This document shows positions 1,090 through 36,006 of a stretch of 64,000 nucleotides of DNA, piece by piece; position 1 is the first letter of the stretch, and the number at the start of each line of letters is the position of its first letter. Source of the DNA: Botryosphaeria dothidea. Its lineage: Eukaryota > Ascomycota > Dothideomycetes > Botryosphaeriales > Botryosphaeriaceae. The translations under genes were made by a program, and so were the position numbers. Under the pieces are notes generated by a model. The model was given only the letters and a program-made list of their open reading frames with translations, made no database searches and was not told where the DNA came from. The DNA lies in assembly GCA_011503125.2 (NCBI GenBank), contig WWBZ02000062.1, forward strand, positions 496,001 to 560,000, read 5' to 3'.

Positions 1090-2832
1090 TCAATGAGCTT
1101 TCCCAGCCTTCGCCAACCACAGTCCCACACTCTCCAGAGCCCGATCTCCACCCCAAACGCTCTCCTTGCCACCGCGCCTGAATTCCTCGCTATACACATC
1201 CTCATTACCACCCCGCGTAGCCTCACCCAGGATGACCTCCAGGTCGCGCTGCTGGGAGCTGATCCAGCGCTTAACAAAATTGACCGGATCGGTGCTGAAT
1301 GCAGAGTAGAAGGAGTGCTTGGCCTTGGAGTGTTGGATGGCCTGGACGGCGAGCGCGAGAGACTCGTCCAGCGACGCGATTTGGTTGAGCATCTGCGGGT
1401 TGGTCGTGATGCGGGACATGGCGATGCGGAGGGGGTCGTCGAGCGGGACGAGCACGTCGTAGATGGTCTGCTGCGAAGCCGGCGTCAAGCCGTCGTCGGG
1501 TGTAATATACGACTTGTCGACGCGGATGGTGTACGGGAGCTGGTAGGGCGGGAGCGGGGACAGGTGGGGGAGGATCAGCCGGGGGATGTCCGGGAAGGGG
1601 ACGAAATCCCTGTTGTCGAAGAGCTGGGGTGTGTCAGTAGCTGGGATTTCCCTCGGGGGAGATTCTTTAATATAGACGTACCGCCTTCAATTGAGCGTCA
1701 CACCGGATTTTCCGGCTGTCCTCATCCTCTTGCAGGTTGTTGGCCTTGACGTAGATCCAAATGCCCATCAGAATTCCACCGCGGTCATCCTCCTCCGTGC
1801 CCAGTAGTTCGGCCAAAGGCGGGCTGAGCTTAAAGCGCTCGGGGTTCTCGTCGCGGAATAGATTCACGGTCACGTTGATATTCTCGTCGCTCTTGCGCTC
1901 AAACTCTAGCGTGTCGAAATTTGCGGCGGAGTCGTTCGCGTTGGCTGAGTTTTCGGGCTTCTTCCATTCGATCGAGGTGTAGCCGTCAGGCTGAAGGGAT
2001 TGCGAGCGGTCGAAGTTGATGGTGATTTGCTTGAAGAAATGCGACAGCTTTGTGCGCTGGTTACCGGCAGGCTTCCCCGACTTTGTCTTCTTCGCAGCAT
2101 CGCCCTCGTCCTGCTCCATAGCATCCTCATTCTTCTTCTCCTCGGCTTGCTCCTTGTCGGCTTCCTCGTCCTTATCATCGTCGAGCAGGCGACCCTCAAT
2201 CTTTACGCGGTATGTGGCCTGACTCTCGCTGCCAAAGTCGAAGGCGTCTGGGTCCATGCTCGTGTTCTGCCAGGGCTGGTTCTCGGCGGTATTGCTGATC
2301 CACACACGCATGGTACGGTATCGAGTGAAGTTGCGGGCGCTGCTTTCGGTGATGTCGAGGCGCTTGCGCATCATGACGGCGTCGAGTTTGCGCTCGGCGT
2401 CGCGCAGCTGGCGGTAGCGCTGGACGCCATCGCCGACGACCAGCTCCTCAATGCCGTCGGGGATGTTCTTGTCGGTGGGCTTGCGCGATTGGCGCTTGGC
2501 CAGCTCGCGCTTCTGCATCTCAGCCTGCTGCTGGGCGTGCAGTTGCTGGGGGGTGATGGTGGGCTGGGGGTGTCCGGTCGACACCATGGGACCTATGCGG
2601 CGGCGCATCGTGGTGCTCAGATCAGTAAATTTGATCATGGGGCGATTGCAGTCGCGAGGGCGGAGGGCTGTTGCTGTGGCATGATAGGGCGTCGCTGCCT
2701 CTGTTCGCCGAGCCCAGTCTAGAGCGCGTGTTTCTTACCTGGACCTCGTCTGCCGGCAGCAGCGTGCGCCGGCGACGCGCGCTGGGCAGCAGCAGCCTGC
2801 GGCGGATAATTCCGGTATTGAGCCTGCATCAT
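1090..2832 (-). CDS. SWI/SNF and RSC complex subunit with SWIB domain (Snf12/Rsc6/Ssr3, BAF60 family)
   Basis: Nuclear chromatin-remodelling subunit of about 548 aa. Three exons join in frame: 2832-2739, 2700-1682 and 1623-1090. The first intron has donor GTAAGA and an acceptor near 2701; the second has GTACGT and CCCCAG. Exon 1 encodes the start MMQAQYRNYPPQ, typical of fungal members. The central part holds the RKPTDKNIPDG..VQRY segment and the MRVWISNT..NQPW block of BAF60 proteins, followed by an acidic lysine-rich linker. The SWIB fold (FKLSPPLAELLGT...GIWIYVKANNLQ) spans roughly residues 325-395 and crosses the second intron. The C-terminal helices are also as in the family. The first acceptor is uncertain, because CAG sites 27 and 30 nt further in (exon starts at 2673 and 2670) stay in frame. 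Assignment to SWI/SNF, RSC or both follows family knowledge, not this sequence. Confidence 0.9.
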
Positions 2833-3416
2833 GGACACCGCGCAGCAACAGACGATGGACTAGCGATGATGGAAGGGTCGAAGTGAGCGGCGGAGGGGAG
2901 GTGTGGACGACGCAGGGTGCGGCGCGCTGGTGCAGGACGCGTCGTTCAGAGTTCAGAAGGCGCTTTTTGATTCGCTGCACGGCCAAGGGGGCGGGGAAAG
3001 CACCTCCACGACCAGGCGGAAGAGCACCGCTACGCCACGCCTCACACATACCGCTTCTATAGGCGCTGTATCTGCTGCGCTGCCCGGCTCTTGCGGCTCT
3101 GGTTCCTGCCTTACTGCGCTCCAGCCCATTCGCATGACACACTCTGAGTCTCAGCCCAGCCTTCTCAAACTGCACTCCACTTTCTTTTTGATCCGTGATA
3201 AATAATCGCCTATCCCTCTTCATTCTGCTCTGTGTGCATTTTCTTCCGCTTTTGTTGCGTTGGTTTTTTCTCTGTTCGCGCTTTAGCGCTTGCTGTTTGA
3301 TACCCTTCTTTTTGTCTGTGGCGCCGCTTGGTCGGTCTTCCCGTAAATACTTCAATTCATCATCGTCATCGTCATCATCGACATCGCCATCACCATCACC
3401 GTCAACACCACCCAAA
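2833..3416. promoter_or_regulatory. Divergent promoter region with CAT/CGT-rich leader
   Basis: This 0.58 kb lies between the SWIB gene and the amidohydrolase gene, which point away from each other, so it should hold both promoters. At about 3357-3412, just before the amidohydrolase ATG, there is an imperfect trinucleotide run of CAT, CGT and CAC units. No clear TATA box was picked out. Confidence 0.5.
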
Positions 3417-23402: not shown

Positions 23403-23432
23403 TCCGTTATGGTCTAGGGGTTAGGATTCTCC

Positions 23433-23489
23433 GTAAGTCACCACGCTTCAGCTATAACTATTCACAACTCATTCTAACAATCTCAACAG
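23433..23489 (+). other. 57-nt spliceosomal-type intron inside the tRNA anticodon stem
   Basis: Begins GTAAGT and ends CAACAG, with a CTAAC branch site at 23474-23478, 11 nt before the final AG. It interrupts the 5' strand of the anticodon stem between tRNA positions 30 and 31. These are the same signals as in the protein-gene introns of this window. Removing it restores both the stem and the loop. Confidence 0.7.
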
Positions 23490-23496
23490 GCTTTCA

Positions 23497-23511
23497 ACAT
23501 CATTGTACGAG
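23497..23511 (+). other. Canonical 15-nt tRNA intron between positions 37 and 38
   Basis: Lies directly after A37 of the anticodon loop and before C38, the standard site cut by the tRNA splicing endonuclease in eukaryotes. Its removal is needed to form the seven-base loop CTTTCAC. Confidence 0.7.
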
Positions 23512-23552
23512 CCGGAGCGGCCCGGGTTCGATTCCCGGTAACGGAAATTATC

Positions 23553-23565
23553 TTTTTCGTTTTTT
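23553..23565 (+). terminator. RNA polymerase III terminator of the tRNA-Glu gene
   Basis: Runs of five T (23553-23557) and six T (23560-23565) start seven bases after the discriminator base, the usual distance for a Pol III stop signal. Confidence 0.75.
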
Positions 23566-23640: not shown

Positions 23641-23664
23641 TTTCGGTTCGATTCTCGGTACCGG
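23641..23664 (+). pseudogene. Fragment resembling the 3' end of the tRNA-Glu gene
   Basis: The B-box GGTTCGATTC and a following CGGTA.CGG resemble the T-arm and acceptor end of the gene about 100 bp upstream, but the T-stem no longer pairs fully and no 5' half is visible. The differences are partly C to T. Probably a decayed partial duplicate. Confidence 0.45.
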
Positions 23665-26600
23665 TAGTCCTTGCTTGGCACGGATGCCTCTAGTTATTGA
23701 ACCAATTCAATCGAGTGTCCCCTTCTCCCTCGTTCATGTAGCGTTTCTCAACTGCTAGACATAGCAGTTTTCAGTGTGGTGATGGTGACATCGCTGCCGT
23801 GTTTGATCGAGAGAGTGTCTGGAGGAGTGGTGCTGGTGTATAGTGGCGACGGAACGATGAAGTGTAGAAAGCTTTCCTTGCAGACGGCTTCCTGCCAGAT
23901 ATCGTTGATGGTGCAGGCATGTAGTAGACCTTGGTGTCCTTTTGGGATATCTAGCGAACGATTTGTTATCCTCTGTACTTTCTGAGTGGCAACTGTGGGA
24001 GCAAACTGGGCCCGAGGAGGACCCTTTGTGTGATGAATGAACATGGTATGGATGAACGACAGTCCTGCGAGATTCGAAAAATCCGATACACACTCCCTTT
24101 GTTTTCCAATCTCACACAAGCTGCAACTTGATCAAGGGATTAGAAGTGCTGTAGCGCTGATGCTTCGAAGAAGCCTGCCAATTCCTTGAGCAAGACCATC
24201 GCAACCGTGACTGGACAAACAAACTGACTGAACGCTGCCCGACGCGCGGCTGGTAGTCAAGCGCCAGCCCGTTCCCTGTCCGCGTATCCTCCGCGCAGCT
24301 TGGCAAGTACGTTGCACTCTGCGGATCACAGTCGCCCTCAGCTACGCCCTCGCCGTGCCGTCCTAGACGCCCAAACGCCACTGACGCCGCAAATCTCCAA
24401 TCGATACGAAGGATGACCAGCCCAACGCAAGGAACGGCGTGTGCTCCTCATCGTCACCTCCTGCATACTCGAGAGACGTGCGGGTCGATGCTAAGGGCGA
24501 AGTGTTGATGATCACTGGGGTAAGTTTGAGACGCCCGGCCCAGCGAACGACTCCCCGTCGTGTATCGGAAAATCGACGATTGACGACGTGAGTGCATCAG
24601 GGAACTCTCGTATAGATGATCCTCGATCGGTCTTCCCCCATTTGGGTAGTGATGTATGGTTCCCCTCCTCATTTCTAGGACAGCGGGAAAGCAGGGAATC
24701 CAACCAACACCTGGGACACCCCGGGCAGCGAAACAGCAGCAAGACAGGGACCGTCTCGCCGAAGCTTCTTGCATGCCGCTGCATAGGCGTACAGGTCAGC
24801 ATGAATCTACACAGAGAGACATGGTGTGTCGTCCTCCCAGCCTCCGCGGAGACCCAATTGAAAATGAACCCGCGTCGGTGAACACAAGCGGCAGTCGGGA
24901 AGAAGTACTTGTCGATCCCTGGAAAACGCGCCTCGTCACTTTGTTCGATCACTTATTAGGGGTGCCCCTATTGGCTGCGAGGCAGATTTCCCCCATTGAT
25001 TGCACACGAACAATACGAGGTCGTCGACCCACGCAGAGACCACCCATGCCCAAAATGGTCGGCCCAACCTTTCCCAAAAATCAGTGCGGGCTCACCACGT
25101 CGGCGCCGAGAAAACATCGGGGGCGACGGTGTCTATCCACTCCCACCGGAAAGTGTGGTGGAGGTTCCACTGGACCCAAACTTCACCAGTTTCGATGATC
25201 CGCTATTTATGTCTATCTGCCACGAGTGGTGTAAACGATCCTGGCGGAGACCGCGGATTCCGTTCGACAGAGCGTGTGGTGCGCAAGTTAGCGGCGCAGT
25301 CTCGCTTCTTGCTGACGATCCTCTTTGCATTGACAATGTCGGCTACCCCGAACGATGGGTCCCTCGGGCCACGTCTTCTAGAAGAGCGGCACATGGCAGC
25401 GAGAATGCCGGTGCCTGGGCCAGCAATGGAGCAGGATTACGCCTCGCCCGTAGGTGCAAACCGCACAGATCGCAGCGTCGTATCGTGCGCGTAGGGCGAA
25501 GCTCTGAGCCAAGCTTTGTCTGGTGGAGATCCGCCCGGAAGTCTGCGCCCCTTCACGGCAGACCCGTATCGCTTCGGGCACTGGCCGAGGCAGACTGCCA
25601 TTACCGAAAACTCGCCGACTTTTGTCGAAACAATGGGGGGAGAAAAACGGAGCCCGTCTGCAAGATATTCTGCTGCATATAGCACGTGCAGGAGCGTGAA
25701 GGGAGATATACAATACGATAGTCGAGCCATGGTTTTAGACGGGCTGTCCGGCGCGAGCGCTACAAATCGACTAGCATTCGCTGGCCCTTACGCTTTGAAG
25801 CGGTTGATCAGCGTTTACGAAGGCAGTAGGGCTGGCCTAACGGTTTCGGCAGATTGCAATATGTCTTCTGGTTTTGCCGGTGATTGTGCATGGTGAGTGC
25901 AGTGACAGCATCTGCTGTTCGCGCGAATGCTGGCGGTACTGCCAATGCCTCGTGCCTCGTGCCTGGATGATGAGAAGCTTTTGCGGTTGGGTGAATTTGA
26001 ACGGCAATGGCCGAGAACGCACGACTAGCGGATTGTGTTGGTTGCGGGGGCTGGTTTTAGGCAGCGGAAGGAACCCTTCGTTGCGGACAGATCAACGGGA
26101 TTGGTGGGACGGCGGAAGCTTAAGTCGTCCGCTCCGCCTCGTCCGGCACCGAGAATAATGACAGGTGCGCCGCTGCTTGGCAGCAAGTTGCGTCGCCAAA
26201 GAGGCTAAGAATAGCCGGGGCGGCGATGCATGAACGCCGGCGGCCGCGGAGCAATTTGGAGTCAAGTACTGCCGTGATATGATTCCGAGTGGAACGCTAC
26301 GGCCGGACACGGTCGTGAGGCAAAGGGCCGAGGGGTGTAGCGATGGTTGCATCTTGAATGGAAAGGGACGTGACATGGCGTCGGTAGGGCGCGACGGGCT
26401 CTGCGGTGGGGTGGAATGTCGAATGTCGACCGCAGGGCAGCCGCGCATCGTTCGCGGTTGCCCAATCTCCGCCGCCGCTCTACCGTCAACCACATCACAG
26501 CGCGGCCCTTTGGCGTCACCACTCTGCGGTTGATCAGCCAGCCTCCAGCGACACCTCTGAGGCAGCAGTCTAGCGGCGGCGGCGGTCTGAGAAGCGTCTA

Positions 26601-34254: not shown

Positions 34255-36006
34255 ATGGATGTCGGCAACCCAGTGCTCGCGCCGAGCAGGCCCGCGTCCG
34301 CACGCTCCACCCGCAGTGAAATCGAGACTGTCAGTGTGAATGGCGCCAATTGCACCGCTGCCGATGAGAAAAAACAGCAAGCAACCGCAACCGACCAGGA
34401 AGACACGGCGCCAAGCAGCGACAGCGATATCGGCGGTGACGAAGAGCAAGCCGCAACCGCGCCATCGCAGGACGACCGGCCACAATTTTCGAACCTTCGC
34501 CTGCTGTCGTTGGTGCTGACGGTCACGGGAGCCGCGTTCCTCAATGTAAGCCGCGACCTTCCCGATGCGGTAATTTGGCTTCAAATCTGACTTGAACAGA
34601 CGGTGGGTGTGCAGGCGGCTGTCATCGTTCTGCCCACCATCGGTCGTGAACTCTCCATTCCAGACAGCCGACAGCAGTGGATCGTCTCCGCCTACTCTCT
34701 TACCTTTGGCTGTTTCCTGCTCCTATGGGGACGACTAGCCGATGTCTACGGCAAGCGCCTCATTTTCATCTGGGGCTCTGCTTGGCTGACCGTCATCACC
34801 ATCGTCCTACCTTTTGTCAAGAATGAGATCGGATTCGATGCCCTCCGAGGCCTGCAAGGACTGGGAGCCGCTGCAAATGTGCCTACCGCCATTGGAATTC
34901 TCGGCGTGACCTTTCCACCTGGAAGGGCCAAGAACTACGCCTTCTCCTGCTACGGAGCCGGAGCTCCTCTGGGCGCCGTCTTCGGAAATATAATGGGTGG
35001 AGTAATTGGAGAGTATCTCACATGGAAATGGGTATTCTGGATCCTGGGAATCCTCGCCGCGCTGGTGACGCTTGCTGGCATCTTCATCATCTCGCCTCCT
35101 CCCATCCAAAACCCGAACCTGGGCGTCAAAGCAGCCGTCGACTGGATTGGCGGCACCCTCGTCACTGTTGGCCTAATGGTCCTCATGTTCGCCCTGACCG
35201 AAGGCAACGTAGTCGGCTGGGCGACACCGTGGGTGCCCACTCTCATCGTCGCCTCCGTCGTCATCCTGCTCCTCTTCGTTCTCTGGCAGCACCACCTCGA
35301 GACCCGCACGACCCGCCGGCCCCTGATGAAAGTTTCCATCTTCCGCAACACGCGCTTCTCAGCCGCGATGCTTATAATGCTGTGTTTTTTTTCTAGCTTC
35401 AGTAACTTCCTAATCTTCGCTACGTACTTCTTCCAGGACTACCAAGGCCTCTCCGTCATCCAGACCACGCTCCGGTTCATCCCGACCGGCGTCTGCGGCT
35501 TCATGATTGCCTTCGCCACCGGCTTTTTTCTCTCGCGCGTCCGCGGCAACCACATCCTCATGTTCGGCACGCTCGCCTTCTCCGTGTCGGCGCTGCTCTT
35601 CGCCACGCCCATCCCGCCCACCACCACCTACTGGGCCTACGCCTTCCCGGCCATGATTCTCTCCGTCCTCGGCGCCGACACCGTCTACCCCTGCCTGACG
35701 CTCTTCACCGCCAAGAGTCTGCCGCAGGAGGACCAGGCGCTGGGCGGCGCGCTGATCAACGCCGTGGGCCAGATCGGCCGCGCCATCGGTCTCGCTATCG
35801 CGACGGCCGTCGAGACGGCCGTGATAGCATCGGAAAAGGGCGTGCCCGTCGATGCGGTGGGTGGGGAGGACCTGGGGAAGGGAGATCCGGCATTGCTGTC
35901 TGGGTTGCGCGCGGCCGAGTGGTCCACGTTCGGGATGGCGATTGCGGCGTTTGTGCTTGCGGCTGTGGCTTTTAGGGGAGCTGGTTATATCGGAAGGAAA
36001 CATTAG
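34255..36006 (+). CDS. MFS drug:H+ antiporter, DHA2 family (14 helices)
   Basis: Plasma-membrane exporter of 565 aa. Exons 34255-34545 and 34600-36006 join in phase 0 (GTAAGC donor, TTGAACAG acceptor). The ATG sits in CACCATGG. After a 75-residue charged N-terminus come 14 hydrophobic helices. The loop after helix 2 has GRLADVYGKRL, a variant of the MFS signature, and helix 5 has motif C-like GAPLGAVFGNIMGGVIG, seen in exporters. It resembles fungal efflux pumps for toxic compounds such as aminotriazole-resistance proteins. The cargo is unknown. Confidence 0.88.

Follow-up and report, generated by a model that had tools for sequence, protein, structure and literature searches.

Short inserts in at least 24 tRNA genes of Botryosphaeria dothidea, including every tRNA-Phe locus found, are candidate spliceosomal introns

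We found that at least 24 nuclear tRNA genes of Botryosphaeria dothidea, from nine families, very likely carry a short U2-type spliceosomal intron that, judging from the gene sequences, would be removed by the spliceosome from RNA polymerase III (Pol III) pre-tRNAs. The inserts occupy seven cloverleaf positions (8/9, 17/18, 19/20, 24/25, 25/26, 30/31 and 57/58) and none lies at the canonical position 37/38. The genes are spread over nine contigs of the same genome (C1, C3, C8, C12, C18, C36, C47, C58 and C69). In the textbook picture, nuclear tRNA introns lie at 37/38 and a protein endonuclease excises them, and spliceosomal introns are found chiefly in RNA polymerase II (Pol II) RNAs. As an intron, the insert belongs to a known type with a precedent in U6 snRNA; what sets it apart is the tRNA gene as its host. 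We know of no comparable interruption of tRNA genes. Among the papers listed in searches of the open-access PMC library, none dealt with spliceosomal introns in tRNA genes, and the passages retrieved from PMC11782384, PMC4090602, PMC3978253 and PMC10484740 do not describe them.

The window we analyzed is a 64,000-nucleotide stretch (C58:496001-560000) of a 51.7-Mb genome in 78 contigs, and C numbers denote contigs of that assembly. Its tRNA-Glu(UUC) gene (window positions 23403-23546, forward strand, as are all features that follow) contains two interruptions, one of 57 nt at 30/31 and one of 15 nt at 37/38. Exon 1 (nt 1-30; 23403-23432) holds the 5' strand of the acceptor stem, the D arm and four nucleotides of the anticodon stem. 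The 57-nt insert (23433-23489) has the signals claimed for it in an earlier note, which we read directly: a 5' splice site GTAAGT (23433-23438), a branch-point motif CTAAC 11 nt from its end (23474-23478; CTAACAATCTCAACAG at C58:519474-519489) and the ending CAACAG, with the 3' splice site CAG at 23487-23489. Exon 2, GCTTTCA (nt 31-37; 23490-23496), contains the anticodon UUC and is followed by the canonical intron, ACATCATTGTACGAG (23497-23511), which ARAGORN recognized in the spliced form, and by exon 3 (nt 38-73; 23512-23546). The A box TGGTCTAGGGG (23410-23420), assigned by the A-box consensus, lies entirely within exon 1. The B box GGTTCGATTCC (23525-23535; pattern match at C58:519525-519535) and the Pol III terminator-like T runs (T5 at 23553-23557, T6 at 23560-23565) were also as the note had described. 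About 100 nt downstream of the gene, a fragment resembling a tRNA-Glu 3' end occupies 23645-23667 (87% over 23 nt, E 0.24). Elsewhere the window encodes a P450 (13884-15305), a UstYa-family protein (PF11807; 27297-28424) and an MFS transporter (34591-36003), possibly secondary-metabolite genes. It also has an open frame resembling protein disulfide isomerase that is 92% identical, over 75% of the query, to a protein of Lasiodiplodia theobromae, with Phyllosticta and Aplosporella proteins as the next matches; on the strength of this one protein the fungus would be a Botryosphaeriaceae-like Dothideomycete.

Removing 23433-23489 and 23497-23511 by script left a 72-nt tRNA-Glu(TTC) with complete stems, as the earlier note had proposed, and ARAGORN called this product Glu(ttc) with a score of 114.4. 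Its call for the unspliced gene, Ser(aga) with a 72-nt intron, made no sense (score 109.0). Neither Rfam nor ARAGORN without introns detected a tRNA within the window. The predicted fold of the unspliced transcript was unremarkable (z -1.09); it kept the acceptor and T stems, and the D-arm region partly paired with the insert.

The count of intact tRNA-Glu(UUC) genes that the note had suggested yielded two further loci, C12:3030489-3030576 and C3:1331017, both interrupted only at 37/38. The C12 paralogue aligns to nt 1-31 and 88-144 of the window gene and lacks exactly the 57-nt insert, so the insert boundary is set by homology beyond the splice motifs, with a one-nucleotide slippage at a shared G. 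The note had placed the insert in the anticodon stem. This holds for the 30/31 placement but not if the shared G is assigned the other way, which puts the insert at the stem/loop border and makes a 5-bp anticodon stem possible even in the unspliced form. Seven tRNA-Glu(CTC) loci contain the canonical intron only. Because an uninterrupted paralogue exists, the window copy alone could be a casualty, hit by an intron and dead while the C12/C3 copy supplies the cell. We consider this unlikely. All three exons of the window gene are identical to the mature parts of the paralogues although the flanks and the canonical introns differ (the 15-nt intron has a diverged 16-nt counterpart at 37/38 in C12 and C3), its promoter boxes and terminator are intact, and the same class of insert recurs in 23 further genes, among them each of the tRNA-Phe loci found.

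The C12 and C3 tRNA-Glu loci show no difference in the stretches compared (3 kb, and 10 kb upstream), so the assembly holds duplicated sequence. That the inserts result from assembly error, contamination or an annotation illusion is nevertheless hardly credible, as the 24 inserts all differ, lie on nine contigs and are flanked by exons that match same-genome paralogues where these were found. The stretches shared by C3 and C12 represent either an assembly duplicate or a recent segmental duplication. U6, Ser(GCT) and Val(CAC) matches are nearly equally spaced on the two contigs, and a test stretch about 0.5 Mb away had no match at that offset. A transposase-like sequence, presumably of the Tc1/mariner type as judged by eye, lies beside both tRNA-Glu genes (about 2160-3058 of locus L002).

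The other interrupted genes were identified by several routes. When ARAGORN was run with introns on the fetched loci, two of its calls in regions flanking other tRNAs made no sense. Reading by eye showed these to be an initiator tRNA-Met (iMet) gene on C47 with a 56-nt insert (GTAAGT...CTAAC...TAG) in the D stem and a tRNA-Phe gene on C18 with a 58-nt insert (GTCAGT...CTAAC...CAG) at 30/31. Searching the genome with the shared insert end CTAACAAYCTCAAYAG led to a fourth gene, a tRNA-Leu(CAG) on C8; the three exact matches of the shared 3'-end motif all fell within tRNA genes, in the Glu, iMet and Leu introns. A joined-exon DNA query returned five tRNA-Phe loci, all split, and four iMet loci, three of them split. 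Querying with 14 joined tRNAs gave partial matches that, when read, proved to be split genes: for Asp the match covered the 5' part alone, and for Ser it lacked the first 17 nt. The final list came from these loci together with 60 B-box neighborhoods and 28 more that we scanned. Fifteen of the 24 genes (5 Phe, 3 iMet, 4 Asp and 3 Ser) were thus recovered by exon matches that made no use of splice signals, the first Phe and iMet having been noticed by eye beforehand. The other nine (3 Leu, 3 Ala, His, Val and the window Glu gene of the earlier note) surfaced partly through the insert signals.

The B-box searches behind these neighborhoods had variable backgrounds. The pattern GGTTCGANTCC gave 172 matches against 96 for its control, 100 of the 172 being among the matches listed. 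GGTTCGABTCC gave 86 against 85, of which 60 were fetched after excluding known or mitochondrial ones, and GGTTCGADCCC gave 39 against 79, of which 28 were fetched. Eight of 86 matches to GGTTCGAATCC were fetched, and six of these eight belonged to one dispersed repeat. In this SINE-like repeat (L164, L167-L171), a T tract comes after a B box of tRNA-like sequence (GGTTCGAATCCGGGTGGGGACTGTTGC). Another dispersed repeat, ending in GGTTCGAGCCCCGG, is represented by near-identical copies (L192-L196, and also L190) and by an apparently mutated, RIP-like copy (L197).

Interrupted genes make up most of the loci found in several tRNA families. All five tRNA-Phe loci found and all three Leu(CAG) loci are interrupted, as are three of four iMet, three of four Ser(AGA) and four of seven Asp loci. 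Three of four Ala(AGC) loci carry an insert; the fourth (L122, C36:2124308) is a 3' fragment without a 5' half, a true remnant beside intact interrupted genes. One His gene of three is interrupted, one Glu(UUC) of three (two of the three being identical copies) and, of two Val(CAC) loci, the one that was read, the second being its probable duplicate at C3:1438125. Seven families (Glu, Phe, Leu, Ala, Asp, Val and His) also have a canonical 37/38 intron; the interrupted iMet and Ser genes do not. Among the families whose loci, where read, had no insert of this type are Glu(CTC), Gly(GCC), Lys(CTT), Val(AAC), Arg(ACG), Thr(AGT), elongator Met, Gln, Ser(GCT), Pro(CGG) and Cys. These counts are lower bounds, with nuclear Tyr, Trp, Asn, Ile and other tRNAs outside the inventory. 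None of the 24 genes was among the 61 Rfam tRNA matches in this genome (of 63 scored, from 1497 first-look candidates). Ordinary genes were missed there as well, and because these include the uninterrupted Glu genes, the Rfam listing is no inventory. ARAGORN with introns mis-named or missed the unspliced forms.

The inserts share a consistent set of splice signals. They are 51-59 nt long (median 55, mean GC 0.42), and all begin with GT and end with AG. Each matches GTNNG at its 5' end and 17 match GTAAG, the individual starts being GTAAGT (7), GTAAGA (5), GTAAGC (4), GTCAGT (3), GTAGGT (2) and, once each, GTTCGT, GTAAGG and GTGAGT. Every insert has a CTRAY branch motif 9-11 nt from its end (15 CTAAC, 8 CTAAT, 1 CTGAC), and the 3' ends are CAG (13), TAG (10) or AAG (1). 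The deviants are one Phe gene on C69 (Phe_C69b), which starts GTTCGT, and the His gene, which ends AAG. The combination of GTNNG, CTRAY at 9-11 nt and AG occurred in 24 of 24 inserts and in 11 of 2,000,000 shuffled sequences, by a rule formulated after the inserts had been seen. The earlier note had described the window signals as the same as those of protein-gene introns here. Our comparison on this point was a rough one, made with 35 intron-like joins of open frames that were picked by those very signals. These joins are noisy: several are open to doubt, and overlap between loci caused some to be counted twice. The note's reading of a spliceosomal intron in a tRNA gene is strongly favored because the same type of insert recurs in 24 tRNA genes of nine families, including all five tRNA-Phe loci.

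We scanned 316,062 bases of fetched loci and window for candidate introns. This sequence was tRNA-rich by choice, and its overlapping loci caused genes to be counted more than once. There were 136 GT..G/CTRAY/AG candidates, and each one whose junction yielded a tRNA lay in one of the 24 genes. At a score cut of 108, 30 of the 136 made a tRNA, compared with 5/152, 0/167, 0/120, 1/82 and 0/108 for altered motifs; the five were ARAGORN artifacts in Phe genes and the one was the true junction of the Asp gene on C1.

Exact removal of the inserts restored the junctions of uninterrupted paralogues. The 16-mers across the junction matched in 3/3 iMet, 4/4 Asp and 3/3 Ser genes, with one mismatch in three of these ten (one Asp and two Ser). 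Restoration was judged by alignment for Glu and by the cloverleaf only, with the caveats of ARAGORN noted below, for Phe, Leu, Ala, Val and His. In the interrupted iMet genes the acceptor stem stays paired, with GCG/CGC in place of the GAA/TTC of the uninterrupted iMet, a compensated change. We also scored 1491 deletions per gene with ARAGORN. In 13 of the 24 genes no deletion outscored the GT-AG one, which gave the unique best product in eight (3 iMet, 4 Asp and His) and tied in five. Among the remaining 11, between 2 and 17 deletions scored higher in nine genes, and 225 and 209 did so in two Leu genes, because ARAGORN lets anticodon-loop introns absorb errors. ARAGORN by itself does not prove the insert boundaries. 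It also mis-named these two Leu genes Gly(ccc) and returned one Asp gene without an amino acid; the identity of the two Leu genes rests on the anticodon arm GCTAGTTTCAGG that they share with the Leu gene on C8.

Comparison within families suggested that the inserts are maintained. Same-family inserts are 0.53-0.81 identical, and since they share their position, each insertion probably predates the gene copies. We defined the core as the insert minus its first 6 nt and minus everything from the branch motif on. Core identity was 0.51-0.58 for Phe, iMet, Leu, Ala and Ser against 0.48-0.50 for shuffled sequence, and 0.67 against 0.48 for Asp. The 17 exon nucleotides preceding the insert are 0.96-1.00 identical within families, and the splice signals are also kept. 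In dead inserts the signals would be expected to be lost along with the core. The inserts of multi-copy families therefore look old, because their cores are near the shuffled level while their splice signals persist, and the note's alternative of a recent casualty is a poor fit for these families.

Introner-like elements are new spliceosomal introns that have been spreading in Dothideomycetes. Reminiscent of such elements, the Glu insert and the Leu insert on C8 share their last 16 nt exactly, and the iMet insert on C47 fits a degenerate form of the motif. The shared 3'-end pattern had six genome matches at up to one mismatch (three in the control), and the other three showed no tRNA by eye. 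The note had also raised introner-like copies of the 57-nt insert. We found no second whole copy: the window insert with short flanks (76 nt) is single-copy in the genome, and near-identical copies in unrelated genes are absent, in a search that covered this insert only. Patterns meant to find the genes in relatives had no matches in viral contigs. In genome contigs, one ill-suited pattern gave none, and another gave one bacterial match attributable to chance.

We compared the inserts to tRNA introns that are cut by endonucleases. Canonical 37/38 introns, processed by the tRNA splicing endonuclease (TSEN) and a ligase, likewise interrupt the anticodon arm, but the inserts differ from them in position, in their constant GT, branch and AG signals and in lacking a bulge-helix-bulge. 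The tRNA introns of nucleomorphs, Cyanidioschyzon and Crenarchaeota resemble the present case in that several occur per gene, also in the D and T arms. Those at non-canonical sites of Guillardia theta are 3-24 nt long; splicing endonucleases are credited in PMC4090602 and PMC3978253, and PMC4090602 contains no word beginning with "spliceosom". The inserts could by analogy be extra tRNA-type introns that the tRNA endonuclease cuts at unusual sites, as in nucleomorphs and red algae, with GT-AG ends by coincidence; non-canonical introns in the D and T arms, and more than one intron per gene, do occur in algae (passages of PMC4090602 and PMC3978253). Consistent with this, if each cut is allowed to slide by 1 nt, a central helix of 4 bp with exon 2 is possible for eight of the inserts (Glu, 4 Phe, 2 Ser and Val). 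By a simple pairing test, however, 0 of 24 had a flanking helix at a border of bulge-helix-bulge-like form, which is no enrichment over random cut pairs (83/4000) and an absence of the size expected by chance, and all three spliceosomal signals occur at tight spacing in all 24. We regard endonuclease cleavage of the inserts as very improbable.

The positions of the inserts bear on which polymerase transcribes these genes. By reading, the A and B boxes are intact in 16 of the 24, namely those with inserts at 19/20, 24/25, 25/26 and 30/31. In the three Ser genes (17/18) the first G of the intron replaces G18, in the His gene (8/9) the insert disturbs the start of the A box, and in the four Asp genes (57/58) it splits the B box. 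All four Asp inserts contain CGTTCGAA at insert nt 12-19. The blocks invariant among them are GTAAG, CGTTCGAA, ACTAA and the final AG, besides isolated single columns, and GTTCGA occurs in none of the other 20 inserts. We propose that CGTTCGAA is likely a replacement B box; this element would be the best sequence evidence that these genes are both transcribed by Pol III and spliced. Runs of at least four T follow 21 of the 24 genes, and three fetched Ala stretches stop about 30-40 nt past the gene. Spliceosomal splicing, including spliceosome assembly, is usually coupled to Pol II, and the spliceosome could act instead on Pol II read-through transcripts from which the tRNAs are made. The whole promoter boxes, the downstream T runs and the B-box-like element kept by the Asp introns all speak against this route, and Pol III-made U6 is spliced in fission yeast; we judge it quite improbable.

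We infer the excision itself, as well as the spliceosome as its agent, Pol III as the polymerase and the order of the steps. In the proposed route, Pol III would transcribe each gene from its internal A and B boxes, with CGTTCGAA inside the intron substituting for the split B box in Asp. The nuclear spliceosome would then recognize the 5' splice site, the CURAY branch site and the AG, and exon joining would restore the cloverleaf. TSEN and ligase would subsequently excise the 37/38 intron where present. The spliceosome is placed first because only its action creates the correct anticodon loop in Glu and Phe; TSEN acting first would yield a wrong loop in these tRNAs. TSEN would act later, which in yeasts happens in the cytoplasm. 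Removal is most simply pictured, by analogy with fission-yeast U6, as the work of the ordinary spliceosome on a Pol III transcript.

The U6 snRNA of Schizosaccharomyces is the closest precedent, a U2-type intron in a structural RNA made by Pol III. According to a title in the reference list of PMC10484740, these introns contain a B-box match, as the Asp introns do here. The Schizosaccharomyces case concerns one snRNA gene and is explained by reverse splicing near catalytic nucleotides, whereas here at least 24 tRNA genes of nine families are interrupted at seven positions, most with a second, endonuclease-type intron. Three full-length U6 matches in the B. dothidea genome had no insert. Fungal rRNA genes, whose host transcript is made by Pol I, offer a second likeness as mRNA-type introns in a structural RNA gene, but they involve no tRNA. 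Spliceosomal introns in these genes are reported in a title cited in PMC11782384.

The tRNA-Phe genes suggest that removal of the inserts matters to the cell. tRNA-Phe(GAA) is essential and reads both Phe codons. In this assembly all tRNA-Phe loci found are split at 30/31, and no uninterrupted nuclear tRNA-Phe was found. The Phe exon junction GAGAGCGCCAGACTGAAG had no copy in the genome at zero or one mismatch; at two mismatches it had two, against three in the reversed control. Because all five loci are interrupted and no uninterrupted one turned up, the sequences imply that insert removal is almost certainly required. It is probable that the spliceosome is an obligatory tRNA-processing machine in this lineage and that introns which landed in the promoter either carried a substitute B box with them or acquired one by evolution. 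If so, spliceosomal removal, in most cases with endonuclease splicing as the next step, would be needed for all tRNA-Phe and for a large share of the initiator tRNA-Met, Leu(CAG), Ala(AGC), Ser(AGA) and Asp supply, directly coupling translation to spliceosome activity. Essential tRNAs that need the spliceosome would break the division of labor between endonuclease and spliceosome. They would reveal how spliceosomal introns enter Pol III genes and last there, and would make intron gain testable in RNAs whose exons are unable to drift. They would also explain why such genes have gone unseen, since standard finders miss or mis-name the unspliced forms.

Some interrupted genes also have distinctive trailers. 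In the five tRNA-Phe genes (L145-L148 and L150), a conserved hairpin, CCAGUC-loop-GACUGG, stands ahead of the T run in a trailer of about 45 nt. Both sides are changed in the C18 gene (CCAGCC/GGCUGG), and one C69 gene (C69b) has a single mismatch. This hairpin is independent of the insert, because trailers are short in the iMet, Asp and Glu genes that are interrupted. Among 39 uninterrupted tRNAs checked, a T run lies within 20 nt in 34 and a hairpin of at least 5 bp occurs in two. Three tRNA-Ala genes (L086, L130 and L138) keep the elements CUGG...CCAG downstream.
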